A stretch of DNA of 64,000 bases, from the NCBI GenBank assembly GCA_016214905.1, contig JACRMQ010000008.1:1-64000 (forward strand). Reading direction: 5' to 3'. The DNA is from Ignavibacteriales bacterium. GTDB taxonomy: Bacteria; Bacteroidota; Ignavibacteria; UBA10030; SZUA-254. A model generated the notes under the pieces. That model was given only the letters and a program-made list of their open reading frames with translations, had not been told where the DNA came from and ran no database searches. Below, in pieces: positions 16,573 through 43,560 of the stretch (the stretch's first letter is position 1; every line of letters begins with the position of its first letter). The position numbers were made by a program, and so were the translations under genes.

Positions 16573-16588
16573 TGCAACTGCTATGCCA
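16573..16588 (-). promoter_or_regulatory. Sigma-54 promoter for the nonaheme cytochrome gene
   Basis: On the minus strand the sequence TGGCATAGCAGTTGCA matches the -24/-12 consensus TGGCAC-N5-TTGCA at all but one position, with the invariant GG and GC ten nt apart. The -12 element is 129 nt from the start codon at 16444. Confidence 0.8.
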
Positions 16589-16758
16589 CTAATATATCTT
16601 TGTATTTTTTTTCGGAATGCCGATATTTTAATAAATTTTGAGTGTTTTAAATAAGATGAACCGATATCTGAAGATAAGATTCGGAAAAATGAGTTATATC
16701 ACGCATATTCTATTAAATCTGATCTGATAAAACGATTTTAAATATTCAGATAAAATGA

Positions 16759-16790
16759 AAGAGAGTGGCTTAATGAAAAACCACTCTCTT
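16759..16790 (-). terminator. Intrinsic terminator of the 912-residue cytochrome gene
   Basis: Arms AAGAGAGTGG (16759-16768) and CCACTCTCTT (16781-16790) form a 10-bp stem with a 12-nt loop. Read on the minus strand it is followed by a T-rich stretch (TTTCATTTTATC), 54 nt after the stop codon. Confidence 0.75.
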
Positions 16791-16843
16791 CACCTAATTC
16801 ACATGATCCACCAAGTCACTCGGTGGAAGCGATGTGCTCTATT

Positions 16844-19582
16844 TTACTTCATCAGTATCATCTTACGGGTAAACGATGTTGTACCGGCTTCCATCTTGTA
16901 GAGATAGATACCGCTTGCAACACTCATACCTGCATCGTCTTTTCCGTTCCATGTAACTGATTGATAACCGGCGCTTTGTTCGCCATCGAAGAGCGTCGTT
17001 ACCAGCATACCAAGTGCATTATAAACTGAAATCTTGACATGCTCTGCCTGCGGCAGTTCATAACGGATTTGAGTTGTTGGATTGAACGGGTTCGGATGGT
17101 TTTGCCGTAACGCAAATTCCGTCGGTACTCCGAGTTCATCACCAACACTGGTTACCATTATTGAAACTTCATTGGAATAATTACTTTCGTTACCTGAGAA
17201 ATCGAAAGCTGATACTTTGTAATAGTAGGTCGCACCCACCGTCACCGCGGCATCGGTATACTGAACATCGGCAGTTGTACCTAATGGTGTACCGCTTGGA
17301 ATAAAGTCTGGTGTAGTGCCTCTATACACCGCAAAATATTTGAAATCGGTATCAGTCGGAACACTCATATCTAAACGAACAACACTGCTGCCGCTCTGTG
17401 CCGCAATTGCCGGAGCAAACGGAGCAAGATTATCTATAGAGTAACCGCTCATCGTCGAAGAAGTATAGACCACGTTTGTTGCTGTATAACCAACGACCTC
17501 GAACATGGTAGTCACCAATCCCGATGCCGTTGAATCATATAGCGTTGGTACAACAAGTGAATATATTGTTTGTTTGAGTGCTTTGAACTCACCCACTTTT
17601 GTCCAAACACTGCCGCTCAATAAAACCGCATTACCACCGCCAACTTTTTGCAACATATCTCTGTAAGAGGATGCTGTAACTATGGTTTTACCAAGTGCTA
17701 CTCCGGCTGAATCTTGTCTGAGAACTAAATAGTTCGTAACAGGATCCGGATAATTTTCTGCCGGGAATTTATTCCAGACTATTTGAACTTGTTTGCCCTG
17801 ATCGTTTGGTATATCGGTAATCGAAGCTATTGAGGCAGCTCCGGCTCCCAGCTTTACCATTTCGATTGAAGAACGTAACAATGCCGAGGCATACTCATAA
17901 TTATGAACACCATAGCTACCATCGTTGACAACGAAGAAGTAGTTGTATGCCGCAGCTTTCTGCACAGTCGATAAAAGCGATGATGTATGAGTTAGCGGTT
18001 GAGTAGTATCACCTGTTGTTGCGTGCGGTAATAATACTCTTAACTCTTCCAGTAATGCCTTTATCTTATCTTGGCTTTGTTCAACAAATTCTAACGAGAC
18101 AGTACCGTGACATTCTTTACATCCAACCGGATTGAGTATATCATCAGTAGCATCATCGGGTGTATCATTATCAAATGCAACCCTAAAGGTATGGCCACCA
18201 AGCTTGCCTCTATACTGACTGAATGGAATACCGGGCAATAGAAGTGTATCCGCTCCGGCAATTGTTGCCATATGACACTCTACGCATGTACCCGAAATGC
18301 TTGAGTGGGATGAATTACGATATTGATAACCTGGGAATTGCAATCCGCCCCACGTACCAATTCCGCTCGTTCCTAAAGTAAACGGTGTACCATTAACACC
18401 AGCAATCATTGGACCCTGTAGTGAATAATGTAAACCGCGCCCACTGATTCGAGTCTTATGACATCCATCGCAAGCATCGTCAAGAGAAGCAACTCTCAAC
18501 TGTGCAAAATTTGCATCGCTATGAGGATCATGGCAAGCTGTACATGTAACCGATTGTACATCTGGGTACGGCGCACCTGTAACATTATGACCTAAGTTTT
18601 CAGTAACAAAACCCTGAGCAGTATGGCATTGGGCGCAATTTGCGCTGTTCATGTGTTCCTCCTCACCGGGTTCACCTTTCGCTTTTGCATGGGCAGTACT
18701 GCCCCACTCATAATTTTTGATGTGTCCGAATTTTCGACCATGGCATTGACCGCAAACATCTGCAGAGTAACTGACTGCAATTTTATTGTTCGATTTATCG
18801 CCCATGTGCAAACTGCCCGGACCATGACAATTCTCGCACTGTATATTTGAAACGTTTGCAAGTGTTGGGAAATTTGTTTTAATAGAATCCCAAACACCCG
18901 GATGTTGCGGACTTGGAATTGCAAAACCTAATCCTGTTGCAACATCATCCCATCCACCATTGACGGCAGTTCCGAGCGCATCGTAACCAACCGTATGACA
19001 ATAAACACAGTTCCCTGAATAATGGTCACTGCTATCTACATTATATGCGAATATACCTGCGTGTCCGGTTTTTTCCCAATCGGCCATTTTAGAATCATGG
19101 CATCCGAATCCACAAGATGCAGGATCTGTTGCGGGTCCTGTAATATTTCCTACACCAACCCAATAAGCTGAGTTGATGTAAACGGTTGTTGCACCAGTAC
19201 CATGACTTGTAGTTACGGTAAGATCTACTTTATATTCTCCGGTTGTATCCGGGATAAAATATGTTGTTGTATCTGTATGAACGATTGTTGCAAATCCACC
19301 GGGTGGATTTGTCAATGTCCAATCTTCAGTAATTATTGTATCAATCCAACTATTAATAGGATTGGTTCCGGAAGTATATAATGCTAATGCTTCCAACCAA
19401 ACTTTTTGTCCCTTGCCAACATTTGGTAAACCACTTGATAAAGTGTTAAACCTCCCTGCGGCTTTTAGATCGGGTGAAACTCCTTTTACATTTATTCTTA
19501 CAGTCTGGATCTGTCCGTAACACAGACTCCCCATGGCAAGAATAAGAAGAAGTATTAGAACATTTAATGACAAACGTGACAT
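16844..19582 (-). CDS. Large nonaheme-type c cytochrome with FN3-like domain and T9SS sorting tail
   Basis: A 912-residue exported protein. Signal peptide 1-23. An N-terminal beta domain (25-140) precedes eight CXXCH motifs (CVYCH, CENCH, CGQCH, CAQCH, CTACH, CDGCH, CVECH, CKECH) plus one CX3CH (CGFGCH) that lies first in the series and may bind a ninth heme. Residues about 720-810 are fibronectin type III-like (TYYYKVSAFDFSGNESNYSNEV). The final 85 residues are a T9SS type A sorting domain (FALRQNHPNPFNPTTQIRYE...). Expected location: cell surface. It has a perfect ribosome site (AAAGGAG) and a sigma-54 promoter 51 nt upstream of the start. Together with the neighbour at 14879 it forms a pair of surface cytochromes, probable terminal electron donors to outside acceptors; substrate unknown. 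Confidence 0.93.
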   Translation of the reverse strand: MSRLSLNVLILLLILAMGSLCYGQIQTVRINVKGVSPDLKAAGRFNTLSSGLPNVGKGQKVWLEALALYTSGTNPINSWIDTIITEDWTLTNPPGGFATIVHTDTTTYFIPDTTGEYKVDLTVTTSHGTGATTVYINSAYWVGVGNITGPATDPASCGFGCHDSKMADWEKTGHAGIFAYNVDSSDHYSGNCVYCHTVGYDALGTAVNGGWDDVATGLGFAIPSPQHPGVWDSIKTNFPTLANVSNIQCENCHGPGSLHMGDKSNNKIAVSYSADVCGQCHGRKFGHIKNYEWGSTAHAKAKGEPGEEEHMNSANCAQCHTAQGFVTENLGHNVTGAPYPDVQSVTCTACHDPHSDANFAQLRVASLDDACDGCHKTRISGRGLHYSLQGPMIAGVNGTPFTLGTSGIGTWGGLQFPGYQYRNSSHSSISGTCVECHMATIAGADTLLLPGIPFSQYRGKLGGHTFRVAFDNDTPDDATDDILNPVGCKECHGTVSLEFVEQSQDKIKALLEELRVLLPHATTGDTTQPLTHTSSLLSTVQKAAAYNYFFVVNDGSYGVHNYEYASALLRSSIEMVKLGAGAASIASITDIPNDQGKQVQIVWNKFPAENYPDPVTNYLVLRQDSAGVALGKTIVTASSYRDMLQKVGGGNAVLLSGSVWTKVGEFKALKQTIYSLVVPTLYDSTASGLVTTMFEVVGYTATNVVYTSSTMSGYSIDNLAPFAPAIAAQSGSSVVRLDMSVPTDTDFKYFAVYRGTTPDFIPSGTPLGTTADVQYTDAAVTVGATYYYKVSAFDFSGNESNYSNEVSIMVTSVGDELGVPTEFALRQNHPNPFNPTTQIRYELPQAEHVKISVYNALGMLVTTLFDGEQSAGYQSVTWNGKDDAGMSVASGIYLYKMEAGTTSFTRKMILMK

Positions 19583-19632
19583 AAAACATCTCCTTTAATA
19601 TGTACGTAATAATGAGTTAACCGGATAATTAG

Positions 19633-19648
19633 CGCAATATATATGCCA
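19633..19648 (-). promoter_or_regulatory. Sigma-54 promoter for the 912-residue cytochrome gene
   Basis: Minus-strand TGGCATATATATTGCG: -24 box TGGCAT, five spacer bases, -12 box TTGCG, with GG and GC at the required ten-base separation. The -12 box is 51 nt from the start codon at 19582. Confidence 0.75.
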
Positions 19649-19709
19649 TTTATCCAATGCAGCGGAATATACAAATTTAATTGAATTTTGCAAATTCTAT
19701 CTTCCGATA

Positions 19710-19736
19710 TCTCATCACTGATAATAACTGATGAGA
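19710..19736. promoter_or_regulatory. Inverted repeat, candidate activator site upstream of the sigma-54 promoter
   Basis: TCTCATCA (19710-19717) and TGATGAGA (19729-19736) are perfect inverted arms separated by 11 nt. The centre is about 75 nt upstream of the -24 box at 19643-19648, a usual position for enhancer-binding protein sites. No gene ends here that would need a terminator. Confidence 0.45.
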
Positions 19737-19978
19737 ATTTTAACTCACCATCCAACCCACTCGTAAATAGTCTTGATCAACTCACTTAATTACTCGCTAC
19801 AGACTCGTCTGCAATCAATTTTAAATTGTAGAATTTTCTGTCCGAATTTTTGAGAAATTTTCAATTTATTTTTTTGCTTTATGAAAATCATCATTTCTTA
19901 AATGAATAGAAGATATTTTCATGAAAAATATTCTGGCATACAAATGAAACCTTCATGCTATCAAGAATGGAGAACGGT

Positions 19979-20461
19979 ATGAAGGTAAATCTTAAATATG
20001 GATTTTTTTTAATCCTGGTTAATATGATCTCGCTTAATGCGTTATCTCAAAACCTCGGTTCAATTCGAATTCCATCATCGCAACTCGATTATGAATCTCG
20101 ACATTGTATGAGATGTCACGATGGTTCTCGCGGACAAACGATTGAACTACGACCGGTAAACGCTCCGATTGAATTTGACCGCGGATTATGGATGAGAACA
20201 AAAAATCATTCTATCGGGATGTCGTACTCCGAAACTGAAAATAAAAATCCCCGAGAGTATGTACCGGTAGGTGCATTGAATCCGAACATTAAACTCATCG
20301 ATGGAAAAATTGGGTGCTTGAGCTGCCATGTGGCAAAACCACAGCTGCTTGCATCGTTATCGGTTGAAACAAATTCTGCGGATAATGAATGTGGAGTTGA
20401 TGTCGAAGGAACAACTAAAGCTTTTAAGGGAAACCTTTGTCTCTATTGCCATAGAAAATAA
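19979..20461 (+). CDS. Small triheme c-type cytochrome
   Basis: About 160 residues from ATG 19979, chosen because GGAGA lies eight nt before it and the signal peptide MKVNLKYGFFLILVNMISLNALSQ then begins cleanly; an in-frame ATG at 19955 is less likely. Three heme motifs are seen: CMRCH, CLSCH and CLYCH, the last five residues from the C-terminus. Additional histidines (for example in TKNHSIGM) could serve as distal ligands. Likely periplasmic electron shuttle. It is the only plus-strand gene in the cytochrome island and ends in a strong terminator hairpin. Confidence 0.85.
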   Translation: MKVNLKYGFFLILVNMISLNALSQNLGSIRIPSSQLDYESRHCMRCHDGSRGQTIELRPVNAPIEFDRGLWMRTKNHSIGMSYSETENKNPREYVPVGALNPNIKLIDGKIGCLSCHVAKPQLLASLSVETNSADNECGVDVEGTTKAFKGNLCLYCHRK

Positions 20462-20488
20462 TAATTCATTTTAAATAGCCCCCTCCAT

Positions 20489-20522
20489 AATTCGCCGAGA
20501 AAGTTATCTCTTTCGGCGAATT
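20489..20522 (+). terminator. Terminator of the triheme gene overlapping the facing gene's end
   Basis: Arms AATTCGCCGA (20489-20498) and TCGGCGAATT (20513-20522) make a 10-bp stem, followed on the plus strand by TGTTTTGCTTTCTTTTTT. The right arm lies inside the last codons of the facing minus-strand gene (stop at 20504). Confidence 0.8.
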
Positions 20523-21586
20523 TGTTTTGCTTTCTTTTTTAAAACTTTTGCTTCGTCACTTTTACCGACTTTCTCTAATAATTCTGCCCGAAGCATAGGA
20601 ATTCTGTAATCATATGGTGAAAGTTCTGCGGCTCGGTTCATCTCCTCTTCTGAAACGCTGAGTCTACCCATCATTCCAAACAAATATCCCAAATAACAAT
20701 GCGCAATCGCAATGGTATCGGATTGTTGCAACACTTTTTTTAGAATATCCAATGCTTGCGTGGTATCTCCCTGTTTCGCCGCAATCAATCCCGATAAACT
20801 GAGTGCTTCAATTGAACCCGGAATAATTTTAAGAGCAATTGAAATATTTTTATCTGCTATTTCGATGTTCGATTCCTCAAGCGCAACTTCGGTCAAGAGA
20901 ATCAGTGGTTCTGCAAAACCAGTGTCAATAGAAGCTGCTTCTTGCGCATATTTTTTCGCAGTATCAAGTTCTCCGCGATTGAACTTCATACCTGCCATAT
21001 TATAAAGACGTAGCGCATGTTTGTCGGGTTGACGAGAAAACTTGTGTTGTACAGTCAGATTGCGTTTCCCTTCAAATCGCTCACGGACAAACTCGAACAA
21101 TTGTTCCCTACCCACGATAGTGAAACCAGAAAGATGATAAACAATCTTTCCTTGTTCATCTATAACAAATGTAGTTGGGACTGCAATAACACCATATTGG
21201 CGAAATGTTTTAAGCTGTTCATCGAAAACAATTGGAAATGATATTTTCTTCTTGCTTATTGTTTCGACAATCCGTTGCTTCAACGAGTCGGAAATTGCTT
21301 GTTGCTCTACACATACTCCAACAGCATCCAACACTTGCGTATGATAGCGATTATATAATTCTTCTACCGTATCAATCATTTCAATTGAGTCGTGACCCCA
21401 TGTAGCCCAGAATAAAACGATCGTAAATTTTCCGGTAAACCGTTTCTCGGTTGAAAAAATGTTCCCGTTTATATCCTTCAGACTGAAATCCGGAGCTTGC
21501 GATTGCATCGCTAATTGGGAATAGACCTGTGTTACGGTGATTAAAAGAAATATTAAATATCTCATTTGACTTTTAATAATTACCAT
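20504..21586 (-). CDS. TlpA/redoxin-like exported protein with TPR repeats and no CXXC
   Basis: About 360 residues. The open frame extends to 21613; ATG 21586 (MVIIKSQMRYLIFLL) or ATG 21565 (MRYLIFLL) give better signal peptides, and the choice between them is uncertain. An AhpC/TlpA-type thioredoxin fold follows (PDFSLKDINGNIFS; FTIVLFWATW; cis-Pro in VIAVPTTFVID). At the active-site position, where TlpA has WCXXC, this protein reads WATWGHDS: both cysteines are missing, so it cannot act as a normal disulfide reductase. The C-terminal half is TPR-like (four or so repeats, e.g. EALSLSGLIAAKQGDTTQAL). It lies directly downstream of the 15-heme cytochrome gene, so a scaffolding or chaperone role in cytochrome handling is plausible but unproven. 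Confidence 0.8.
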   Translation of the reverse strand: MVIIKSQMRYLIFLLITVTQVYSQLAMQSQAPDFSLKDINGNIFSTEKRFTGKFTIVLFWATWGHDSIEMIDTVEELYNRYHTQVLDAVGVCVEQQAISDSLKQRIVETISKKKISFPIVFDEQLKTFRQYGVIAVPTTFVIDEQGKIVYHLSGFTIVGREQLFEFVRERFEGKRNLTVQHKFSRQPDKHALRLYNMAGMKFNRGELDTAKKYAQEAASIDTGFAEPLILLTEVALEESNIEIADKNISIALKIIPGSIEALSLSGLIAAKQGDTTQALDILKKVLQQSDTIAIAHCYLGYLFGMMGRLSVSEEEMNRAAELSPYDYRIPMLRAELLEKVGKSDEAKVLKKKAKQIRRKR

Positions 21587-21613
21587 CACCCATTCTTTCA
21601 ACGTGGATAACAA

Positions 21614-22969
21614 TTATTCCTCATCCGTTTTTTCAATAAGGGTCTCGTTTTTATTTCTCTTATAACTAAATGGTGCATGGCATCCCGGAGAACATTTTCC
21701 GCCATTCGGTTCTTTCTCGAACTTGATCGGTAGCATCCACTGGCCGAATGGAACCGCCTCGCGGATGTGTCTGTCATAATTGCTCGCATGAGTTTCATGG
21801 CATGCACGGCAGGTTCGCCCTTTAACTTTTTTGTTGACATGAAGATAATGAAGATTCCTGCTACCATCCCGGAATCCCGTTAATGTCATGGTTGCAGGAT
21901 CTTGTACGAGTGTATTTTGGTGACAGTTGAAACAAAGCTCATATTTCTCCGGAGCAAAGGGTGAATAAAACTCCGGCGGGTATGTTTGAGTTAAGAGGCG
22001 GAAATTTTGCGAGCCATGAACTTCATGGCATCCCGAACAGTCGCGTTCGCGGATTGGACCGTGCCAATTGATATTTTTATCGAACAATGTCTTCATATCC
22101 GAGAGTTTGCTGCCTTTCGCAACCAACTGCTTATCATGACATTTCAGGCAAAGCGTCATCGGTTCTTCTGTAAGTTGTTTTATATGGTTTGCCGTGTGCG
22201 GAGAATGACAAGCCATACACTTTTTTTCTTCATCAAGAGCTAAATGCTTCACCGACATTTTAGTCGTTGAATTTTGAATCGCAGGATGACAAGCAAAGCA
22301 TTGATCCGGAGGGTTTGAACTTAATAAAAATTTTGCATCAGCACTGTGTGGATTATGGCACTTAGCGCAATTTTCACGTGCAGGTTTATGCATATTTTTT
22401 GCTGCCGCGAATGATTCCTGAAAATCTGTGTGACATTGAAAACAAAGCTCGTTAGTCTCTTTCGAAAGCAATTTCGATTTCTCGCTCATGTGCGGAAGAT
22501 GACACGATAAACATTCACCTTCTGCTGCCGGTCCATGTGTGAATTTTTTAGTCATAAGATTTTTGGGGTGACACGAAAAACAGAGATCACTTGTTGAAGA
22601 TTTCCTTAATTGAAATTGTCTATCCGACTGGTGAGGGTCATGGCACTTCGTGCATTCTCCTTTCGCAACAGGCAAATGTAGGTTTCCTTTTTTCTCCATC
22701 GGTTCGTGACATTTATTGCATGTCTCTTCTGAATTTTTTATCGGAACAAATTTATGTTTTTCATCTTTTACAAGTTGATGGCAGGTAATACATTCACCAA
22801 CCGCAGCAGGGCCGTGCACAAATTTTGCCTTGCCAATACCGCTATGACACTTTGCCGTGACGCAAGATTCTTTTGGTTTTTCCTGGGCAAATCCTGTATT
22901 GCCTAATTTCAATGAAAGAATTAAAAAAGACACAATAATTATACAAATTATACGTTTCATATCAAGCAC
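21614..22969 (-). CDS. Multiheme c cytochrome (13 CXXCH plus two variant sites) of the doubled-CXXCH type
   Basis: A 451-residue exported protein with signal peptide (about 1-28). Thirteen CXXCH motifs occur at regular 15-35 residue spacing: CITCH, CNKCH, CTKCH, CFSCH, CLSCH, CFQCH, CAKCH, CFACH, CMACH, CLKCH, CSGCH, CFNCH, CRACH. In addition, CVTAKCH (CX4CH) near the N-terminus and CSPGCH (CX3CH) near the C-terminus look like two more heme sites, giving up to 15. The repeated pattern CHxPH / GPAAxGxCxxCH is that of the doubled-CXXCH (DmsE/MtrA-like periplasmic) family. Such proteins act as heme wires through or near the outer membrane. Overlapping context: the redoxin-TPR gene follows on the same strand. 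A weak TGGCAT box lies upstream (22992-23007). Confidence 0.92.
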   Translation of the reverse strand: MLDMKRIICIIIVSFLILSLKLGNTGFAQEKPKESCVTAKCHSGIGKAKFVHGPAAVGECITCHQLVKDEKHKFVPIKNSEETCNKCHEPMEKKGNLHLPVAKGECTKCHDPHQSDRQFQLRKSSTSDLCFSCHPKNLMTKKFTHGPAAEGECLSCHLPHMSEKSKLLSKETNELCFQCHTDFQESFAAAKNMHKPARENCAKCHNPHSADAKFLLSSNPPDQCFACHPAIQNSTTKMSVKHLALDEEKKCMACHSPHTANHIKQLTEEPMTLCLKCHDKQLVAKGSKLSDMKTLFDKNINWHGPIRERDCSGCHEVHGSQNFRLLTQTYPPEFYSPFAPEKYELCFNCHQNTLVQDPATMTLTGFRDGSRNLHYLHVNKKVKGRTCRACHETHASNYDRHIREAVPFGQWMLPIKFEKEPNGGKCSPGCHAPFSYKRNKNETLIEKTDEE

Positions 22970-23032
22970 CCATAAAATATAATATTTGATTTGTGATGAT
23001 CATGCCAAAATTATTCCGATTCATTTATTAAA

Positions 23033-24505
23033 TCATGCAACAACCGGGAAATTAATTCCGATTGAACTTTGATGATGTTTCGTTGAATGGTGATCCCCTT
23101 GCATATACTTTTTCAGGAAAGAATTTTTCATCATCAGTCTGGTGGCAAGCAACAAATAATCTCTTCTAAATACATTCGTATCGGCTGAAAATTGGGGTAC
23201 CTTCCACATATAAAATTGTTTATAACAATTTACGATAGCGTTATTAATCTCATCGAGTGTCATCGTTTTTGGTTTTACAATCGGAGTTATGAGATTATAT
23301 TTTGAATAATCCCATTCTTCGATATAAGGTTTTAAATCTTTATATAAATCAGAGTAGGGCCAAGGTGTGATTGCAAGAAAATGTCCGAAATCGGGATTGT
23401 AGTGTTTAGCAAGCTCTAATGTAGTGGCTATTGATTCCTGCGTTTCATCCGGCATCCCAAGAACGAATGAGCATTCCGATATCATTCCGTTGGCAGCTAT
23501 CAATCTGAGCGTCTCTTGAGATTGTTCGCACTTGATATCTTTCTTAAAAACATCAAGAGATGCCTGGTTGGTAGCTTCAACTCCGACATAAACGTGTAAT
23601 ATGTTTGCTTTGCGGTATTTCCATAAAATCTTTTCATCGCGAAGGATATCTTCAACCCGAGTTTCCATCAAAAGAGACATATCCATATTTTCATGAATCA
23701 ATCTATCCAAAATCTCTTCCCAACGCTCACCGTTTTTTGTTGGATATTCATCCGATACCATCGCCACATTCACGCCGAATTTACTGTTGAGCAACTTAAG
23801 CTCATCAACAAATTTTTCCGCAGTCAATTCGCGATAACTCTTCTCCCAGAATTTTTGCTGTGAGCAGAAAATACAATCGTGCGGACAGCCGCGTGATGAA
23901 TTAATCGTTGCCATCCTCGATTTGGGTAGAACGTAAAATGTATACAAACTGTAATCGAGCAAATCCCAAGCCGGATCAAGCGAGTTTAAATCGGTTACAA
24001 ACGCCTGCGGACGTGTTGCAATAATTTTGTTTTCATCTTTATAAACAATCCCCGAAACCTTACCAAGATCATTGTCCCCATTGAGACAATTTAAAAGCGC
24101 GGGCATGGTTATTTCACCCTCTCCTCTCACAATGAAGTCTATGAACTGCGGAAAAAGCGAGAATAATTCATCGTACTGAAACGATGGATGAACATTCCCG
24201 AGCACGGTAAGAGCCGAAGGTTTTTCTTCTCTTGAAATTTTTAAAACTTCCGTTGCAGCAACGATACTTGCAGTGATAGAAGAAACACCGAGCATGTCGT
24301 ATTCTTTACCGCGAAGATATTCCCGAATCTCTTCGAGCGAATGCTGAAGCGACATGCTGTCGTATATCTCCACATTGTAGCCATGCTTTCTTAATTCACC
24401 CGCGATATATACGAGTCCAAGGGGGGGCCAGAGTCCGGCAGACTCCAGAACTCCCGAATGATACGGCGGTGTTGCGAGTATTATATTTTTAATTTTCTTT
24501 TTCAT
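23033..24505 (-). CDS. B12-binding-type radical SAM protein
   Basis: A 490-residue cytoplasmic enzyme. Residues 5-145 match the cobalamin-binding Rossmann-like domain of class B radical SAM enzymes (VYIAGELRKHGYNVEIYD; LGVSSITAS), although the classic DXHXXG histidine motif is not clear. The radical SAM core has C207-X3-C211-X2-C214 in SRGCPHDCIFC for the 4Fe-4S cluster, followed by the usual TIM-barrel segments. Family members methylate or rearrange unactivated carbons (hopanoids, bacteriochlorophyll, antibiotics); the substrate here is unknown. Its start overlaps the stop of the CcsA gene (TAATG), so it is the last gene of the cytochrome operon and may modify a cofactor, lipid or protein needed there. 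That link is inference. Confidence 0.85.
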   Translation of the reverse strand: MKKKIKNIILATPPYHSGVLESAGLWPPLGLVYIAGELRKHGYNVEIYDSMSLQHSLEEIREYLRGKEYDMLGVSSITASIVAATEVLKISREEKPSALTVLGNVHPSFQYDELFSLFPQFIDFIVRGEGEITMPALLNCLNGDNDLGKVSGIVYKDENKIIATRPQAFVTDLNSLDPAWDLLDYSLYTFYVLPKSRMATINSSRGCPHDCIFCSQQKFWEKSYRELTAEKFVDELKLLNSKFGVNVAMVSDEYPTKNGERWEEILDRLIHENMDMSLLMETRVEDILRDEKILWKYRKANILHVYVGVEATNQASLDVFKKDIKCEQSQETLRLIAANGMISECSFVLGMPDETQESIATTLELAKHYNPDFGHFLAITPWPYSDLYKDLKPYIEEWDYSKYNLITPIVKPKTMTLDEINNAIVNCYKQFYMWKVPQFSADTNVFRRDYLLLATRLMMKNSFLKKYMQGDHHSTKHHQSSIGINFPVVA

Positions 24506-29626: not shown

Positions 29627-29681
29627 GCTTAATTATAATATTTTCTCGCATTGAAACAAAGCAGTGCCTTAAGTTAAATAT

Positions 29682-30368
29682 TTACTTTACGTGGCATGTA
29701 AAACAGAGTTCGCTGTTGGAATTCGATACCCTTAAAAATGTGGACACACCGGTAACACCATGCGGATCATGACAACTACCGCATTCGAGTGTTGCTGACG
29801 CTGCGGTTGTACCGTAAAGAGTTAACGATCTCGTCGGTGATGTTGCATCGACAGATACTTTTGTACCCGCAACTGTTTCCGTTCTTAAATCAGCATCTGT
29901 TAATCGACTTGTATTGTAAACAAAACCAATCGGGTGATCATTGGTTAGGTTTGTTCCAAGCCCCGTGTACCCTGTTGTATCAATTTTACCTGGAGCTGTA
30001 AAAACCGGAGCTGTTCCGGCACCGCTACCTGGATTATTCACAACGCTTGCCAATGTTATAGTACCATCGTGGCAGCTTAAACAATTTTTCGATACTGCAC
30101 CCGGTTGCGGAACGGTTTGCTCCATAGTCGGACTGGAATAAACCGCATATGATGCAGTAGAGGCAGTCCGATTCCAGAGCAAGCTTGAACTCTGTGTAGA
30201 GTGTGGAGTATGGCAAAAAACGCAAACCTCGGTATAAGTGCTAGACGTGGTTTTCGGACCGGTTGTGGTTGAACCGAATGATAAATCGTGTTTACTGTTT
30301 CTGATCTGTGCAGATCCAACAACTGCAACAACCAAAATCAGTGTTATGATGTTTAGTAAGTATTTCAT
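29682..30368 (-). CDS. Tetraheme c cytochrome (copy B), candidate OmcE-like nanowire subunit
   Basis: A 228-residue exported protein; signal peptide 1-20. Four heme motifs: C49-X2-C52-H53, C96-X2-C99-H100, C196-X2-C199-H200 and C222-X2-C225-H226. Only four other histidines exist, H27 (SKHDLS), H56 (CHTPH), H145 (NDHPIGF) and H203 (CHDPHG), exactly enough to complete four bis-His hemes. The same pattern recurs in the 33431 gene and in the N-terminus of the 26694 gene. Size, heme number and ligand economy resemble OmcE of Geobacter, which polymerises into extracellular filaments; this comparison is from memory and structure is not shown. A perfect ribosome site (AAGGAG) precedes ATG. It follows its NHL partner after 60 nt of ATT-repeat DNA. 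Confidence 0.9.
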   Translation of the reverse strand: MKYLLNIITLILVVAVVGSAQIRNSKHDLSFGSTTTGPKTTSSTYTEVCVFCHTPHSTQSSSLLWNRTASTASYAVYSSPTMEQTVPQPGAVSKNCLSCHDGTITLASVVNNPGSGAGTAPVFTAPGKIDTTGYTGLGTNLTNDHPIGFVYNTSRLTDADLRTETVAGTKVSVDATSPTRSLTLYGTTAASATLECGSCHDPHGVTGVSTFLRVSNSNSELCFTCHVK

Positions 30369-30379
30369 ACGTAACTCCT

Positions 30380-30436
30380 TTAAGATATTAATTAATTATT
30401 ACTGTTATTACTATTATTACTTTTATTATTATTCAT
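30380..30436. repeat. ATT/AAT trinucleotide-rich tract before the tetraheme gene
   Basis: The gap between the NHL lipoprotein and the tetraheme gene is almost wholly TTA/ATT units (for example TTATTACTATTATTACTTTT). It begins inside the NHL stop codon region and ends before the ribosome site of the tetraheme gene. It is likely a slippage-prone or unstructured leader that keeps the ribosome site open. Confidence 0.6.
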
Positions 30437-31436
30437 TACCGATAAACTGAAAAACCTGAACGCGTGCGTTTAACTGATCTACAACATAAATATAATTGTC
30501 TTTATCTATAAAAATTCCAGCAGGTAATTGAAATTCAGCAATACCTGCACCTGCCTGTCCAACAAACATCAACGCTTCACCTTTATCGTTGAACAGTTGG
30601 AAATTATCGAATGCGGCATCGACGACATAAATATGTTCGAATGAATCGAGCGCTATACCTTTGGGACGTGAAAAATTCCCGGGTGTATTTCCAAGTTGTC
30701 CGAATTTTGATATGAAGTTCCCGTCAATATCGAAAATCTGAACTCGTCCGTTTATAGTATCAACTATATAAACTTTATTATTACGTACTGTGATATTTGT
30801 CGGAAAATTAAACTCGCCATCATTACCACCCCGCTTGCCGAACGTGAATAAAAATTTACCTTCATCGTTATAAACTTTAACCAAATGATTATTAGTGTCG
30901 ACAATATATAATCGGTTAGAGGTCGAGTCATAAGCTATTCCCGTTGGTGAAGCAAATTCATTTTCTTCTCCGATTCCAAATAATAGATTACCCTCTATGT
31001 CGTACGCAAAAACACGCTTAACTTTTGAATCGGCAATGAACACTTTATTTGATGGAGTAATTGCAATACCGATCGGAGATTGAAGCTTCGCGCTTCCTTT
31101 ATCGCCGATCAATCGAATTTGTTTTTGAGTAACATCGAATACGAATACCTTTTTCAAACTCGTATCTGAAACATAAATATTCTTTGTGGCATCAACCGCA
31201 ACAGCATACGGCCGCTCGAAAGTTGTACCTGCATTTTCACCCGCAAGCGCTTTTAGAACCTTATCAATTCCTGATGATTCAAAAAAATCTTTTCCTTTTA
31301 TGATATTTACCATTTTTATTCGGGGTGTTTCGGGTGGCGGAGGCCAGACATAATCAGGAATTGCTTCCTTCGATGCGCCGCAACCGAAAAGCAAGAGTAA
31401 ATAAAAGTATATAATTATATGTGTAAATGATTTCAT
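30429..31436 (-). CDS. NHL-repeat beta-propeller lipoprotein (copy B)
   Basis: About 335 residues from ATG 31436; an in-frame TTG at 31454 is weaker. The N-terminus MKSFTHIIIYFYLLLLFGCGAS carries a lipobox with Cys 19, predicting a lipid anchor in the outer membrane. The shared lead YVWPPPPETPRIKMVNI is followed by about six NHL repeats (GGNDGEFNFPTNITV, PGNFSRPKGIALDSFEHIYVVD). It is a paralogue of the NHL proteins at 28628 and 34196 and precedes a tetraheme cytochrome, as they do. Probable role: docking or assembly platform for the partner cytochrome, an inference from constant gene pairing. Confidence 0.9.
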   Translation of the reverse strand: MKSFTHIIIYFYLLLLFGCGASKEAIPDYVWPPPPETPRIKMVNIIKGKDFFESSGIDKVLKALAGENAGTTFERPYAVAVDATKNIYVSDTSLKKVFVFDVTQKQIRLIGDKGSAKLQSPIGIAITPSNKVFIADSKVKRVFAYDIEGNLLFGIGEENEFASPTGIAYDSTSNRLYIVDTNNHLVKVYNDEGKFLFTFGKRGGNDGEFNFPTNITVRNNKVYIVDTINGRVQIFDIDGNFISKFGQLGNTPGNFSRPKGIALDSFEHIYVVDAAFDNFQLFNDKGEALMFVGQAGAGIAEFQLPAGIFIDKDNYIYVVDQLNARVQVFQFIGNE

Positions 31437-31689
31437 TATCTTTAGATTGTTCAATTATTGTGCCTTTATAAATTATCGTTTTAATTCAACTAATACGGTT
31501 TTCCATATCACAAATGATATTAATTGTGCCATATAACACTATGCGAAAAAACATAAAATTTAGGACTGGAGCGTTAATTTCGTTAATGCCGGAACTAACA
31601 ACTCCAATCCTTTCTCTCAGGCAAGGGGTATTGCGAAGAGAGTTATTTATGATTTCAAATTTTAGCCTTTGGATCTTGGAATCAATCAT

Positions 31690-33378
31690 TTATAATCCAA
31701 TATTAAAAGGTCTTGCTATGCTGAACCAGATGTCGTGACGGGTATCTATGAACCTGAATTCCTGCAACCGCAACTGAAATGCAAGTGCCCGCCAGCCATA
31801 AACGAATTCGATTGTTTGTTCAAAATATGGTCTTCTATAATATATATCATACGATCGGTTGAGACGATAATTCATTGATAGATCTTGTATAAAGAAACGA
31901 CCACTATTTATATTTGCCATCAGTCCGTATAAATGGCCTGAAATACCGTTTGATATCCAACTTATACTACCTTCAACTGAAATTGTAAAAGGGCTATATA
32001 AGTAGAGAGACATATTCAATTGCTCTCTTAATTTTATCGTTTGATATTTATAAAAAAGCTCGTTTGTATTTGACCGTCGTTCATTGTGAAATTCAACACC
32101 TGTTTGAGAATTTATTTCGTACGGTAATGTTTTACCGAGCGTCATATTCAACATATTATTTATCTCATCTCGCCCAAGATATCCCTTAATCCTGGTCATG
32201 TTAAACGATTGATTAACGTTTATTTGATATCCACCCGATGTAGTTTGAAGACTGTTTGTCAAACCCCCAACGTAAGACCTCTGACCTAAAAGGGAAACTT
32301 GCTTTGCATAACCGAACGATAATCCGTTGGAAAATGTGATGTCGCTGATCGATCTCATATGTTGTATTGTTCCGGTTCCTGTTAAATTATCGGTGCGTTG
32401 TTTGTAACTGCCGTTCTGCTGAAGATAAATATCGTAAGTCGATTGGTTGCCAAACGAAATTGCGTAATTAAAATTTTCATTCTGCAAAAACTGAATAGTT
32501 TGTCCTATACCCAGCGTTGTTGACGATGCTGATTGAGAGCTTGCATTTCGAGTCAATATATTAGTGTTAAGCCTGAATTTCTCGAACAATGTACCGTTAT
32601 AAATACCATTGGCATTTATCATAGATGTATTTTCGAACTTATAATATTCTGAAGTAATATCTGCATGATGATTGGGGGAAAATTCTTTGTTACCGCTCAT
32701 CTGGAACCGGAGGTACCTTAACCTGTTGTTCGTAAAACTTTCGTAATTCTCACTAAGAGACCCGGATAAACTAAACGAACCATCCTGTGTGGATTGAGAC
32801 ATATTAACAATAAGCTCCTGCATAACTTGATTGAACCGGTTCAACGACAGATCCGACCAATGACGGTTTCGTTGATATGCAACGGATGTTGTTGGCAAGA
32901 ATTTTAAACTCATGGTCGACAACTCAATGCGCTGTTGTTGTTGCCGATAGTCATTGAAGCCGACATTAAATTTACTGAATTGTGAAGATGATTTGATTTG
33001 TTGATCTCTGGCAGAAAACGATAGTCGCACCGGCAATCGTTGCAGAGCATTGACATTCAGATCATAGAACCCGATAACGGTTTGCTTGTAAGAACTGTTG
33101 ACTCCGGCAAAAGATGAAGTGTTATAATTTATATTGATGTTGGTGCGGGCATCGAAGGAAAAAATCATGGGGGACAAAATATAACCCGCCGTCCCCAAAA
33201 TAAATTGTGGATTCTTGCGTACCAATTTATAAAAAGCGCCGCCGCTATAAGCATCCTGATATTGATGCTGATACCTCAGTTCACCACCAATTGATGAAAA
33301 CTGACTGACCCCATTATAAATAGATAGCACTAATAAAAGCGCTATAATAAATACTCGCTTCACTTTTCCCCTTGCCAA
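31690..33378 (-). CDS. Predicted outer-membrane beta-barrel protein of the cytochrome operon
   Basis: A 562-residue protein with signal peptide (MARGKVKRVFIIALLLVLSIYNGVSQ). The rest is made of alternating aromatic/polar strands of about ten residues with Asn/Ser/Gly-rich turns, many Tyr and Gln, no cysteine motifs and no soluble domain, as expected for a large outer-membrane barrel of about 20 or more strands. I do not recognise a named family. It is encoded between tetraheme copy A and NHL copy B on the same strand, so it is a candidate for the pore that lets electrons or exported cytochromes cross the outer membrane, similar in role to porin-cytochrome conduits. That role is inferred from context. 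Confidence 0.75.
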   Translation of the reverse strand: MARGKVKRVFIIALLLVLSIYNGVSQFSSIGGELRYQHQYQDAYSGGAFYKLVRKNPQFILGTAGYILSPMIFSFDARTNININYNTSSFAGVNSSYKQTVIGFYDLNVNALQRLPVRLSFSARDQQIKSSSQFSKFNVGFNDYRQQQQRIELSTMSLKFLPTTSVAYQRNRHWSDLSLNRFNQVMQELIVNMSQSTQDGSFSLSGSLSENYESFTNNRLRYLRFQMSGNKEFSPNHHADITSEYYKFENTSMINANGIYNGTLFEKFRLNTNILTRNASSQSASSTTLGIGQTIQFLQNENFNYAISFGNQSTYDIYLQQNGSYKQRTDNLTGTGTIQHMRSISDITFSNGLSFGYAKQVSLLGQRSYVGGLTNSLQTTSGGYQINVNQSFNMTRIKGYLGRDEINNMLNMTLGKTLPYEINSQTGVEFHNERRSNTNELFYKYQTIKLREQLNMSLYLYSPFTISVEGSISWISNGISGHLYGLMANINSGRFFIQDLSMNYRLNRSYDIYYRRPYFEQTIEFVYGWRALAFQLRLQEFRFIDTRHDIWFSIARPFNIGL

Positions 33379-33386
33379 AATTGTTT

Positions 33387-33415
33387 GTGCGACTCATCTT
33401 TGAGATGAGCCGCAC
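33387..33415 (-). terminator. Hairpin between tetraheme copy A and the barrel gene
   Basis: Arms GTGCGACTCATCT and AGATGAGCCGCAC (33387-33399 and 33403-33415) pair over 13 positions with one mismatch and a 3-nt loop. No T-run follows on the minus strand, so it more likely stabilises the upstream cytochrome mRNA or partly attenuates than fully terminates. Confidence 0.6.
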
Positions 33416-33430
33416 AATATTAACTGTTGC

Positions 33431-34096
33431 TTACTTAATATGACATGAAATACAAAGAACGCCACCATCGCTTGAAACACGAGTCATTTTGCTCGTGCCA
33501 TGCGGGTTGTGGCAGCTACCGCATTGCATCATATCGTTGTAAAGCGGTAAATTGTTTAATGGGGTGGCTTGTAATGCGCCGTCAGCAGTTACTAATGCTG
33601 CGTCGTATACAAAGTTCACCGGATGTGTATGTGATAAACCGGTTCCATATTTGGTTCCACCATGAAGATTGGCTGCATCACCAACTGTCTGGTTTTCTAT
33701 TGCGGTTGTCCATGTGCCACCATAGGGGCGTTTTTCATATGCTGTTGTGGTGAACAACGCACTACCATCGTGGCAGCTCATACACATTGAACTGACATTA
33801 TCCTGACCAGTCGCTAATGCGGTTGGTGTGGCATCCATTGTTGCGCTTGAATAGACACCATATGCGGTTCCTGCTGTCAACGCTTTACGCGACCATAGCG
33901 GTGCTTTGATTCCGGTTGAAGGAACGTGTGGGGTATGACAATATGCGCAAACCTTCTCCGATGCACCCTTGATGGTGTTCGCAGAGGAAGCTGCAAAGTT
34001 GTGCTTACTTGTAGCCATTCCTAATGTTGGTGTTTGACTCATTACGAATGTTGTTGCTACGAGTATCATTACTGCTACAACTAAAAGTTGTTTCAT
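33431..34096 (-). CDS. Tetraheme c cytochrome (copy A), candidate OmcE-like nanowire subunit
   Basis: A 221-residue exported protein; signal peptide 1-20. Heme motifs CAYCH (C50-H54), CMSCH (C105-H109), CGSCH (C192-H196) and CISCH (C215-H219). The distal-ligand histidines follow the same plan as copy B: H32 in SKHNF, H57 in CHTPH, H158 in THPVNF and H199 in CHNPHG; H145 and H156 are extra. A perfect ribosome site (AAGGAG) precedes the ATG, suggesting high expression. It follows NHL lipoprotein copy A and precedes an mRNA hairpin and a beta-barrel gene. Family resemblance and filament formation are inferred, as for copy B. Confidence 0.9.
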   Translation of the reverse strand: MKQLLVVAVMILVATTFVMSQTPTLGMATSKHNFAASSANTIKGASEKVCAYCHTPHVPSTGIKAPLWSRKALTAGTAYGVYSSATMDATPTALATGQDNVSSMCMSCHDGSALFTTTAYEKRPYGGTWTTAIENQTVGDAANLHGGTKYGTGLSHTHPVNFVYDAALVTADGALQATPLNNLPLYNDMMQCGSCHNPHGTSKMTRVSSDGGVLCISCHIK

Positions 34097-34195
34097 AAAT
34101 TACTCCTTGATTAATGATTTTGTTTTTACTGCCTCGTGATTGAACAGAATCCTTTCCCTCATGAGGCATTGAGGAAGTGGATTTTTGATTTTTAA

Positions 34196-35212
34196 CTAAT
34201 CTACTTTTAACAGTTGAAATACCTGTATCCTCTGGTTCAACTGGTCTGCAACGTAAATTGTATTTTTTTGGTCGATTGAAATTCCGACTGGATTTTGAAA
34301 TCCCCAATTATCTTTATTAGAGAACCTACCTACATACATAAGCAGTTCAAAATTCTGATTAAAGATCTGATAGTTTTGATGCATTGCATCGACTACATAG
34401 ATATTTTGATACGTATCGAGAGCTATACCCTTGGGACGTGCGAATGTGCCAAAGATATTCCCTTGCTGTCCGTATTTCCGTAAAAACTTTCCTTGTGAGT
34501 CGAACTGTTGTATCCGGAAATTAAACGCATCCACTACATAAATATTTCCTGCCGTATCAACTGCAACGCTTTGAGGGAAATTAAATTCACCATCTGCATC
34601 ACCGCGCTTACCTATCGTCAATAATGAATCTCCGCTTTCGGAATAAATAAATACCTGATGATTTTTGTTATCTGCAACAACCACCCGTTTATTCAATTTA
34701 TCGTATTCAACATCAACCGGGTTCTGGAAAGCACCTGACTTTCCGATAAGATTTAAAAATTTCCCTTCAGGAGTAGTGACAACAACCTGACCAATTTCTG
34801 CAATACCGATGAATAATTTCCCATTTCCGTAAGCAAGTCCAAGCGGATTGCCGAGCGGAACGGGAATATTTTCTCCAAGAACTGAAACCTTTTTCTGTTT
34901 TTCATCAAAGACTATGATACCCTGCGCAACATCGGTAACAAAGATTAATCCATTACCATCGCTGCAAACATCGAATGGACGAGAAAGTGCGATGGTTCCT
35001 GTTTTCCCGGTTAAAGCTTGAGCGAAAATTCCAAACTTTGAAAGAAAATCGTCTTCACTCGAAAAAGTTTTTACATATTTAATGCGTGCTTCATCAGGCG
35101 GGCTGGGCCAAACAACATCTTCTTTCTGAATATTCTTTGAACCACATCCATAGAATGAGTTGGCACAAATTACTGTTACAACTATCAATATTTTTTTCAA
35201 TATATCTTTCAT
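34196..35212 (-). CDS. NHL-repeat beta-propeller lipoprotein (copy A)
   Basis: About 338 residues; ATG 35212 gives MKDILKKILIVVTVICANSFYGC with a lipobox Cys at residue 23, while an in-frame ATG at 35221 adds three residues; neither has a strong ribosome site. The lead VVWPSPPDEARIKYVKTF matches the paralogues, then about six NHL repeats follow (RGDADGEFNFPQSVAVD, NIYVVDAFNFRIQQFD, FARPKGIALDTYQNIYVVD). Predicted outer-membrane-anchored propeller. It is followed by tetraheme copy A after about 100 nt containing an imperfect TGCCTC/GAGGCA hairpin. Pairing with a cytochrome is the same as for the other two copies. Confidence 0.9.
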   Translation of the reverse strand: MKDILKKILIVVTVICANSFYGCGSKNIQKEDVVWPSPPDEARIKYVKTFSSEDDFLSKFGIFAQALTGKTGTIALSRPFDVCSDGNGLIFVTDVAQGIIVFDEKQKKVSVLGENIPVPLGNPLGLAYGNGKLFIGIAEIGQVVVTTPEGKFLNLIGKSGAFQNPVDVEYDKLNKRVVVADNKNHQVFIYSESGDSLLTIGKRGDADGEFNFPQSVAVDTAGNIYVVDAFNFRIQQFDSQGKFLRKYGQQGNIFGTFARPKGIALDTYQNIYVVDAMHQNYQIFNQNFELLMYVGRFSNKDNWGFQNPVGISIDQKNTIYVADQLNQRIQVFQLLKVD

Positions 35213-35230
35213 AATCAACATAGATAAACT

Positions 35231-36160
35231 TTACTTGTGTGGATCATCCTTTTTTTCGTTCTTCTTATCATCCGGATTTCCCGGTTTATTGACTTCTTCT
35301 TCAGACGGAATCGGTTGAATAGTTTGCCCGATACCTTTTTCCTCTGTAGACATTTTTTCCATATCTTCAAATGATGGAATAACAACCTTCAGTGCTGCAG
35401 GCGGCTTCGGAGACAAGTTCAAATCGGCAGTGGCAAGTGAAAAGCCAGCGGAAAAAATCCACGACGACATCGGCTTAGAGTGCATATAACCACCGCTAAT
35501 TTGAACGCTGATGTTGGAAAAGATTCTAACCATTCCGCTCAGCATACCTTGTTTTTCTCTCATCCCGAAATAATTATAGATGCCTTCACCGCCAATTTTA
35601 AATTCACTGCTTAGAGGATATGTTCCGCCAACGGCAGTCACCGGTAAATATTTATGGTTAATATTCATAGCTCCGGCAATTACGATTGGATTAAAATTAC
35701 CAATCGATCTGCCGCCGATGAAGAAGAACCGCGTAGTATTCTGTGGAAACAGTCCCTTCTCAGACGAGAGCGGTGATGAGATGGTTTCACACCAGATGGC
35801 AAGATGCCCAATCACAGGAACCCTGAACGGCAGAAGAAACTTACCACCGATTCCATATGAGACATCTGAACTGATTGCACCTGTTTGCTCGCTGTACATT
35901 GAAATAAACGCTTCGAGATTTGTCGAAAATCCGCCATGAAGAGTGTACACATTAAATCCTTTCATGCCGCCACGAAGGAAATCAACGCGACTCATATTGA
36001 CACGCAACTGGGAAGATGGCGCAACGGAAATTGTGGGAGCTATGACGATGCTCGATCCGCCGGAAATTCCTAAATCGGTAAATGTTGTTTGCGCGGTGGC
36101 AATAGTTGCCATAGCAAACAATAAACAGAGTGATCGGTATGTATTTACTTTTGATGACAT
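35231..36160 (-). CDS. Exported beta-rich protein, probable outer-membrane protein with acidic/Lys tail
   Basis: About 309 residues from ATG 36160 (MSSKVNTYRSLCLLFAMATIATAQ signal peptide); another ATG is three codons earlier. Both starts lie inside the end of the octaheme gene, so translation is coupled. Residues 30-240 show repeated amphipathic strands (VSYGIGGKFLLPFRV, RFFFIGGRSIGNFN, ISVQISGGYMHS) typical of a small outer-membrane barrel. The C-terminal 60 residues are Pro/Glu/Lys-rich and disordered, likely facing the periplasm. No known family recognised. With the 562-residue barrel it gives the operon two outer-membrane candidates. Confidence 0.7.
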   Translation of the reverse strand: MSSKVNTYRSLCLLFAMATIATAQTTFTDLGISGGSSIVIAPTISVAPSSQLRVNMSRVDFLRGGMKGFNVYTLHGGFSTNLEAFISMYSEQTGAISSDVSYGIGGKFLLPFRVPVIGHLAIWCETISSPLSSEKGLFPQNTTRFFFIGGRSIGNFNPIVIAGAMNINHKYLPVTAVGGTYPLSSEFKIGGEGIYNYFGMREKQGMLSGMVRIFSNISVQISGGYMHSKPMSSWIFSAGFSLATADLNLSPKPPAALKVVIPSFEDMEKMSTEEKGIGQTIQPIPSEEEVNKPGNPDDKKNEKKDDPHK

Positions 36161-37368
36161 TGCATACACACTGCCATTGAACCGCCGCCGGCTTTCAACA
36201 ATGATTGGTTTTCAGAGCCATGCGGTTTGTGGCAACTTACACATGAAATTTCTTCGTTCGATTCTTTATTCAATTTCGAAAATCGGAGCGGATGCTTATC
36301 AACAGGGTGATTCACGAGATGATTTTCATGACATCCCGTGCACAACCTATAAATTTCTTTTTTTAATATATTCGGTTGATCGGACGCATGCGGTGAATGA
36401 CAGATACCACAATCGTTTGCCACCGGATGCTGCACCGCTGAGTTTTCAACTTCATCTTTTTTCTCGGAGTGGCAATCGTAGCAAACACCCGGTACTCCTT
36501 TCGCAACAATTTCAATATTTTTTTCTGCTGATCGTTCATGGCAAACTGAACAATCTTTAGGTTCTGCTGCGGGTCCATGTTTCACTAATCCTCCGGCGAT
36601 TTGCGTGTGACACAGGCCGCAATTCTCGCGCAAACCTTGGGCATTCACTTCACCGGGTAATTCTTCATGACAGGTCGCACATGTCGATGCAAGTTGTGAA
36701 CCATGGAAATGTGCTTCACGCGATTCACTGCTTCGAGCGTCTGATACGAACCGGATGTAAAATTCTTTCGAATCGTTTTTATTACCGTTATCGGCAAAAT
36801 ATATTCTGTTCACACCGGGCAATAATTGTATCGACGTGTAATATAAAATCTGATCAGGATTAAGTGGGTCGAGATGAGTTGAAGTGTAAACGGTATCTTT
36901 CCATCCTCTAATATGAAGCAGAACATGTGAAGCACTTATATTTTGAACCTGATTGATAATTTCGGCGAATTGCGGTAATTGCCAAAAAGATCGAACAGTT
37001 ACAGTATCTGTATAAGAAAAATTAACCGAATCGGCTTTTGAGAATCCGTTGTAAAACAGAAAAGAGGTAGATACTAATTCGAGCGTCGACTTCGGAGGAA
37101 ATAATTTAAAAACCTCTTTGGCAAAATTATCTTTATTGGTCTTGTTGCTGATATCAATCAATTTTTCAACCGACCATTGAGTGGAAATTAATAAGCCGGC
37201 CGTTTGTTCCTTTGGTGCCGATATTAAAAACAATTGTCCCTGATCGAATGCGAGCGAATCCGGATATATCGGTGCTAGAACCGTTAATGTAGACCTCGGT
37301 GCATCGCCCAGAAAACAGACAATGCAAAGAACGAATAGAATTGATATTGTGAGATATTTATTAATCAT
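36145..37368 (-). CDS. Octaheme c cytochrome with a beta-rich N-terminal domain
   Basis: A 407-residue exported protein, first gene of the long operon. The signal sequence is MINKYLTISILFVLCIVCFLG. Residues 25-215 contain no heme motif and look like a beta-sandwich. Eight CXXCH motifs fill residues 225-407: CATCH, CGLCH, CSVCH, CYDCH, CGICH, CTGCH, CVSCH and CMQCH, with the doubled-CXXCH style words CHSPHAS and CHKPHGS. The last heme motif is three residues from the end. Likely periplasmic or outer-membrane-associated electron carrier. Its transcription can be assigned to the sigma-54 promoter at 37401-37416, 33 nt upstream of the start. Confidence 0.92.
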   Translation of the reverse strand: MINKYLTISILFVLCIVCFLGDAPRSTLTVLAPIYPDSLAFDQGQLFLISAPKEQTAGLLISTQWSVEKLIDISNKTNKDNFAKEVFKLFPPKSTLELVSTSFLFYNGFSKADSVNFSYTDTVTVRSFWQLPQFAEIINQVQNISASHVLLHIRGWKDTVYTSTHLDPLNPDQILYYTSIQLLPGVNRIYFADNGNKNDSKEFYIRFVSDARSSESREAHFHGSQLASTCATCHEELPGEVNAQGLRENCGLCHTQIAGGLVKHGPAAEPKDCSVCHERSAEKNIEIVAKGVPGVCYDCHSEKKDEVENSAVQHPVANDCGICHSPHASDQPNILKKEIYRLCTGCHENHLVNHPVDKHPLRFSKLNKESNEEISCVSCHKPHGSENQSLLKAGGGSMAVCMQCHQK

Positions 37369-37400
37369 TTGTAGAAACAGTGAAGCGTATGAATTATTTG

Positions 37401-37416
37401 TGCATGTTTAATGCCA
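37401..37416 (-). promoter_or_regulatory. Sigma-54 promoter of the cytochrome/NHL operon
   Basis: Minus-strand TGGCATTAAACATGCA: -24 box TGGCAT, five bases, -12 box ATGCA; GG and GC are ten bases apart as required. It lies 33 nt before the octaheme start codon and is the only clear promoter for the 14-kb operon running to 23033. Confidence 0.7.
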
Positions 37417-41756: not shown

Positions 41757-41760
41757 TCAA

Positions 41761-43537: not shown

Positions 43538-43560
43538 TGTAATTATTCGATTTGCATTGT

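Follow-up and report, generated by a model that had tools for sequence, protein, structure and literature searches.

Activation of sigma-54 promoters by enhancer-binding proteins (EBPs) is a classical class of regulatory mechanism. Control of this type over a cytochrome complex has been described by comparative genomics in Desulfovibrio vulgaris, where the EBP DVU3142 acts on ohcBAC (PMC4641369), and in a study of Geobacter sulfurreducens RpoN, omcB was raised in the RpoN+ strain (PMC2725144). Among sensors, the Tll0287-like domain PF11845 has been described as a covalent-heme Cache domain with a CxxCH motif located between its last two strands (preprint PMC12889525).

The locus considered here belongs to an Ignavibacteriales bacterium (assembly GCA_016214905.1, G000 below) and was studied in the first 64,000 nucleotides of contig JACRMQ010000008.1, referred to as the window. 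In our opinion, it is highly probable, judging from the sequence, that one two-component system controls a cytochrome regulon in this genome through sigma-54 promoters and a common enhancer, and the relatives appear to keep the same wiring, including sites, palindromes and gene order.

Predicted Sigma-54 Promoters of the Island

The features of the island are collected in Table 1. Three minus-strand sites that begin with TGGCAT and keep GG-N10-GC were found exactly where the preliminary description had placed them, and each of them precedes a multiheme unit as it had stated: the ORFs of the 521-aa cytochrome, the 912-aa cytochrome and cytA, with 9, 8 and 8 CxxCH motifs, begin at distances of about 130, 50 and 34 bp, respectively. 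These three sites are real and fit the pattern YTGGCAY with GG-N10-GC, but the count for the island was too low, and at least four predicted promoters are present there, to which a remote one is added. A strict sigma-54 site was found neither in the gaps of the long operon (31440-31720 read) nor upstream of the kinase, 13-heme, porin, NHL2 and 168-aa genes. Scans for sigma-70 promoters, compared with shuffled sequence, were slightly above chance in the first of two stretches and not above chance in the second. The genome has one rpoN gene (Sigma54_DBD match, E 3.7e-57).

Table 1. Predicted regulatory elements and genes of the cytochrome island (positions in the window)
Feature	Position	Strand	Remarks
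Sigma-54 (-24/-12) promoter, 9-heme cytochrome with T9SS tail	16573..16588	-	TGGCATAGCAGTTGCA
Sigma-54 promoter, 8-heme 912-aa cytochrome	19633..19648	-	TGGCATATATATTGCG
Sigma-54 promoter, long conduit operon (cytA first)	37401..37416	-	TGGCATTAAACATGCA
Fourth sigma-54-like promoter, before receiver gene	38011..38026	-	TGGCACAGACTTTGTC, GG-N10-GT
Enhancer (UAS) palindrome, 9-heme (521-aa) cytochrome	16690..16705	-	TGCGTGATATAACTCA, 117 bp upstream of -24 element
UAS palindrome, 912-aa cytochrome	19732..19747	-	TGAGTTAAAATTCTCA, 99 bp upstream of -24 element
UAS palindrome, cytA	37477..37492	-	TGAGTGTAATGGCACA, 76 bp upstream, degenerate
Tandem UAS palindromes, receiver gene	38099..38132	-	TGAGTTATTTAACTCA (38099-38114), TGAGGCGAATCACTCA (38117-38132)
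UAS palindrome, kinase	41076..41091	-	TGCGTGATTTAACGCA, 33 bp ahead of kinase start
9-heme c-type cytochrome (521-aa), T9SS type A sorting tail	14879..16444	-	9 CxxCH
912-aa multiheme cytochrome, T9SS type A sorting tail	16844..19582	-	8 CxxCH
cytA, 8-heme cytochrome, first gene of operon	36145..37368	-	8 CxxCH
Remainder of cytA operon	20504..36169	-	Same strand, short gaps
Predicted outer-membrane beta-barrel	31690..33378	-	Signal helix, then about 28 strands, MtrB-like size
Stand-alone receiver-domain protein	37586..37993	-	Syntenic in relatives
NtrC-type response regulator	38139..39506	-	Receiver PF00072, AAA+ PF00158, Fis-type HTH PF02954
Membrane histidine kinase, predicted periplasmic Cache-like sensor, one CxxCH	39517..41043	-	

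A pattern search for TGGCAY-N6-TGC (GG-N10-GC) over the whole genome (3.32 Mb, 10 contigs) gave 28 matches, compared with 19 for the pattern read backwards. Twenty of the 28 are situated within ORFs, so the bare motif does arise by chance, and the -24/-12 sites might be regarded as chance matches in AT-rich intergenic DNA. However, all eight intergenic matches are correctly oriented, being 20–130 bp ahead of an ORF on the same strand, and the island accounts for three of them, although only about 0.18 matches are expected by proportion in this 21-kb interval. An off-spacing control, in which the spacer had one extra base, resulted in 19 matches, with 17 in ORFs and none of the remainder within 130 bp of a gene start. 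Moreover, the sites are conserved at 39–78% protein identity, and this cross-genus conservation comes close to excluding chance, which we consider an extremely improbable explanation.

The remaining five intergenic sites lie ahead of hemN, a divergent exopolysaccharide pair and two lipoprotein genes, one of which forms part of a lipoprotein/outer-membrane pair. Thus, sigma-54 sites are not exclusive to cytochrome genes in this genome. Such sites before unrelated genes are to be expected, and the regulon question is undecided by them. The clustering at cytochromes that a genome search was supposed to reveal was seen for three of the eight intergenic sites but not for the other five. Equally good sites before unrelated genes, which the preliminary description had counted against a regulon, do exist for the bare promoter motif; because of them, the regulon is defined here by the enhancer and not by the promoter motif.

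Putative Target Genes

The stretch of about 17 kb from 37368 to 20504 appears to be one operon, because its genes lie on the same strand with mostly short or negative gaps (the largest one is 236 bp, 31455-31689). After cytA, it encodes a 312-aa protein, three NHL beta-propeller proteins and 4-, 4-, 10- and 13-heme cytochromes, as well as a predicted beta-barrel, ResB and CcsA-type proteins of cytochrome c maturation, a radical SAM protein and a thioredoxin-TPR protein. The model of the predicted barrel has a pLDDT of 78.9 and a pTM of 0.52, and no Pfam match was found for it. A large predicted beta-barrel is encoded here beside multiheme cytochromes, which is the arrangement by which porin-cytochrome conduits are recognized. 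Between the two units of T9SS-tailed cytochromes, there is a terminator-like hairpin (16791-16758), and these cytochromes likely reach the cell surface through type IX secretion. Surface electron transfer would be the natural reading of this gene content. Not all cytochromes of the genome enter the regulon, because the loci C7:221581, C7:230178 and C5:106459 have neither a sigma-54 site nor the palindrome.

Directly upstream of the island and on the same strand (41163-51920), molybdenum-cofactor genes (mobA, MOSC, moeA, moaC/mog-like and moaA) are located together with a Psr/Phs-like molybdoenzyme operon (Tat-signal molybdopterin subunit, FeS, NrfD, sulfur-transport pair and rhodanese) and a MerR-like gene. 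This order is kept in G006 and partly in G002, and a different molybdoenzyme operon lies near the kinase in G005. Just past the other end of the island (7931-11003), a second two-component system, consisting of a large kinase and an OmpR-type regulator, is encoded. The hemN gene (anaerobic coproporphyrinogen oxidase; L035/L052, C7:214085 and C7:215989), which has a sigma-54-type site, adjoins a different EBP, and no palindrome of the cytochrome regulon was found at this gene. Divergent sigma-54-type sites at C7:871615-871985 (L040/L041) belong to Wzc-like and Wza-like exopolysaccharide genes with an EBP-like gene beside them.

The Shared Palindrome

A 16-bp palindrome, TGRGTN6ACYCA, is found 75–117 bp upstream of the island sigma-54 sites. 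Its consensus was initially recognized by visual inspection of orthologous cytA and receiver promoters, including the receiver promoter of this genome, and the matrix used for testing was retrained on other genera only, without this genome and its congener G001. The top hits of this matrix in the 64-kb window are, in order, 16690, 38099, 41076, 38117, 7397, 37477 and 19732. Six of these seven coincide with the four promoters and the kinase, and the exception, 7397, is inside an M16 peptidase gene. In this genome, the cytA palindrome has two mismatches and that of the 912-aa gene has one.

When each of the 28 promoter-like matches was scored for a palindrome at 55–130 bp upstream, the island sites occupied ranks 1–3 (19.2, 11.0 and 9.1) and the next score was 6.3; the chance of obtaining these ranks is 1/3276 if ranks are random. 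Scores at the five other intergenic sigma-54-type sites do not exceed 6.5. A score of at least 8.5 is reached by 0.8% of window segments at the 75-bp scale, the segments with the sites themselves being included. The relaxed palindrome TGNGTN6ACNCA occurs at 19 distinct places in the genome, with three of them at island promoters and another before the remote tetraheme gene. Pattern searches and loci refer to the whole genome, and matrix scans refer to the window and chosen upstream regions.

No sigma-54 site was found beside the kinase palindrome (41076-41091), which is kept in G001, G006 and G002. Its position before the kinase suggests feedback, likely in the form of autoregulation of the system.

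The Two-Component System

About 14 full EBPs were recognized among 20 PF00158 matches in the genome, and one of the sites might be served by another of them. The loop of the regulator has GAFTDA instead of the usual GAFTGA, as in all orthologs examined and in one other EBP of this genome. The best NCBIfam hits are AtoC, NtrC and ZraR for the regulator and AtoS and ZraS for the kinase, all of them below the family cut-offs.

The CxxCH motif of the kinase (C158, C161 and H162) is invariant in 10 orthologs within an otherwise variable domain, predicted to be periplasmic, and this supports the term "heme-linked" used for the system in the preliminary description. In the predicted topology, the motif is placed between the last two strands, with a pLDDT of about 56–77 in this part. 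The match of the window's kinase to PF11845 is sub-threshold (17.2 bits against 24.1), and the same domain is below the cut-off in eight of 10 orthologs (best E 0.0038). A fold search with the kinase model returned kinase cores only and did not reach the sensor part. The stand-alone receiver protein (37586-37993) has its own sigma-54-like promoter and tandem enhancers, and its position is conserved; it might be a phosphate sink or participate in feedback.

Conservation in Related Genomes

The gene order kinase-regulator-receiver-cytA is kept in eight relatives across one order. Counting this genome, 10 of 11 have the sigma-54 site ahead of the cytA ortholog, and it persists at protein identity down to 23–26% (G036); no canonical site was found before cytA in G020. 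In seven of nine genomes, a sigma-54-like site with GC or GT at -12 precedes the receiver gene, GC being present in two relatives. Homologs of the 521-aa gene have the site at an equal distance (-146) in G001 (TGGTACGATAGTTGCA) and G006 (CGGCACGGCAGTTGTA), and the palindrome TGTGTGATATAGCCCA is located in G006 about 255 bp before this homolog, at a matching distance. The 912-aa ortholog of G006 is preceded by the site TGGCACGGTGATTGCG and, upstream, by the palindrome TGGGCTAATACCCTCA at -98, and TGGCATTCCTTGTGCA was found before the homolog in G005. Better copies of the cytA palindrome are present in relatives at -74 and -93, and the top palindromes in the leave-one-out analysis stand ahead of the kinase, receiver, cytA and 912-aa cytochrome genes.

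In G005 and G007, which have no cytA, the kinase, regulator and receiver are present, and sigma-54 sites with palindromes are situated before the receiver gene and before other genes that encode multiheme proteins. A regulator ortholog is absent genome-wide in G003 and G008 (G008 has a short contig, but its genome completeness is 99%), and the palindrome near cytA is weak (8.7) or misplaced (10.1) there, compared with 11.0–22.4 in nine regulator-bearing genomes.

In view of the number of EBPs in the genome and the degenerate state of two of the three palindromes, it may be supposed that the sites are real sigma-54 promoters which are served by different activators and do not form a single cytochrome regulon. 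Such a situation seems unlikely to us, because the same palindrome occurs at matching distances at all the sites and in relatives, is absent from other sigma-54-type sites of the genome and is weak or missing in genomes that have lost the regulator. The common palindrome, conserved across genera, also supports the earlier proposal that one neighbouring NtrC-type regulator serves all three promoters.

The system is narrow in its distribution, because a search of 395 genomes from the whole phylum gave matches at E <= 1e-150 in only three, namely, in the present genome, G004 and G104. The order kinase-regulator-receiver-cytA was observed in a second family of the class (L163 and L273) with TTGA/TTGT at -12 and a variant, TGGGGAATATTMCCCA-like palindrome, which suggests co-evolution of the regulator and enhancer. 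Among cytochrome clusters adjacent to NtrC-type genes in Deferribacteraceae and Nitrospiraceae, whose regulators have 37–47% identity and are of doubtful orthology, a sigma-54-like site precedes the cytochrome in L170 and L186, and none was found in most others. In L170, a Deferribacteraceae MAG, TGGCACAGTTAATGCT (5508) lies 48 bp ahead of a tetraheme gene that directly follows an NtrC-type gene, and like wiring may exist in another phylum.

The Remote Locus

The remote locus C7:126239-126955 comprises a 4-heme gene followed by the genes of an NHL protein and a 14-heme cytochrome, with two palindromes upstream. The sequence TGGTAT-N5-TTGA before the tetraheme gene is conserved in G000, G001 and G006, and TTGA is a plausible sigma-54 variant, because it also occurs at -12 ahead of cytA in two more distant genomes with the system (L163 and L273). 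This locus probably belongs to the regulon.

The TATAAT overlapping TGGTATAATAATTGA at the same locus may instead be read as a vegetative promoter. Along with the palindrome near the kinase start, which has no sigma-54 site, it could indicate that the palindrome binds some other regulator, such as a repressor acting on vegetative promoters, GG-N10-GC being incidental. We find this very unlikely, as GG and the GC/GT/GA spacing are kept across genera while the flanks diverge, the distance from the palindrome to the -24 element stays within 67–117 bp, and the palindrome is found together with the Fis-type HTH regulator.

Proposed Mechanism and Its Significance

From the sites, palindromes, their conservation and co-occurrence, we infer promoter activity, binding, phosphotransfer, heme, signal and a role in electron transfer, which together give the following scheme of sigma-54 control by one two-component system. 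The kinase probably binds c-type heme via CxxCH in its predicted Cache-like domain, and this heme would signal either the redox state of the periplasm or the presence of a heme ligand, for instance, NO or O2. The kinase would then phosphorylate the NtrC-type activator, which, as expected from the class of activator, would oligomerise on TGRGTN6ACYCA and remodel sigma-54 RNA polymerase at TGGCAY-N6-TGC. The putative targets are the receiver gene, the 17-kb cytA operon of porin-cytochrome, NHL and maturation genes, the two T9SS-tailed multiheme cytochromes and, probably, the remote locus, with feedback on the kinase-regulator system through the palindrome before the kinase.

In a broader sense, there is, in our estimate, an even chance that surface electron transfer in an order of uncultured Bacteroidota-type bacteria has this NtrC-type system, sensing through c-type heme, as its dedicated and vertically retained master switch. 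The switch would jointly control the outer-membrane conduit, T9SS-tailed cytochromes and maturation genes and recruit new cytochromes by the placing of the enhancer and sigma-54 promoter before them when lineages change their cytochromes.

For lineages without genetics, the scheme offers a regulatory logic of extracellular electron transfer that can be tested. From the motif pair (enhancer and -24/-12), it can be predicted which multiheme genes, out of many, are used jointly, and heme-linked periplasmic sensing becomes a candidate signal. The predicted co-control of T9SS-tailed cytochromes with the porin-cytochrome operon suggests that both belong to a common surface pathway.

Comparison with Known Systems

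According to the preliminary description, such control is not known for this group, and no open-access literature joining sigma-54, multiheme cytochromes and Ignavibacteria was found, which is weak evidence. The claim holds for the group to this extent, but sigma-54 control of cytochromes as such is known in Desulfovibrio (PMC4641369) and Geobacter (PMC2725144).

Similarity to the DVU3142/ohcBAC system consists in sigma-54 promoters and an EBP motif before a multiheme (octaheme) cytochrome complex, although in that case the regulator gene diverges from a single small inner-membrane/periplasmic operon (PMC4641369), whereas a two-component system, several units with the beta-barrel, NHL proteins and T9SS-tailed cytochromes, and a remote locus are predicted to be involved here. 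RpoN of G. sulfurreducens likewise ties sigma-54 to cytochromes of extracellular electron transfer; however, its regulon is global, including nitrogen, flagella and pili, and the accessible part of that study does not link a cytochrome island to any one heme-linked system (PMC2725144).

The kinase and the receiver-AAA+-Fis HTH activator resemble ZraSR, AtoSC and NtrBC but differ from them in the CxxCH sensor domain and targets. In the sCache_heme (DUF3365/Tll0287) sensors, including Geobacter GSU0582 and GSU0935, a periplasmic Cache-like fold has CxxCH before the last strand, as predicted here (PMC12889525, PMC3460858), whereas the window's kinase matches the Pfam family only below the threshold. 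Mtr/Pcc porin-cytochrome conduits share with this island a beta-barrel encoded beside multiheme cytochromes, but the predicted barrel of the island has no family-level sequence match and NHL proteins are interleaved. Summarizing these comparisons, the locus may be considered a new regulon of the type formed by an NtrC-type activator and sigma-54, notable for its span, heme-linked sensor and the group in which it is found.
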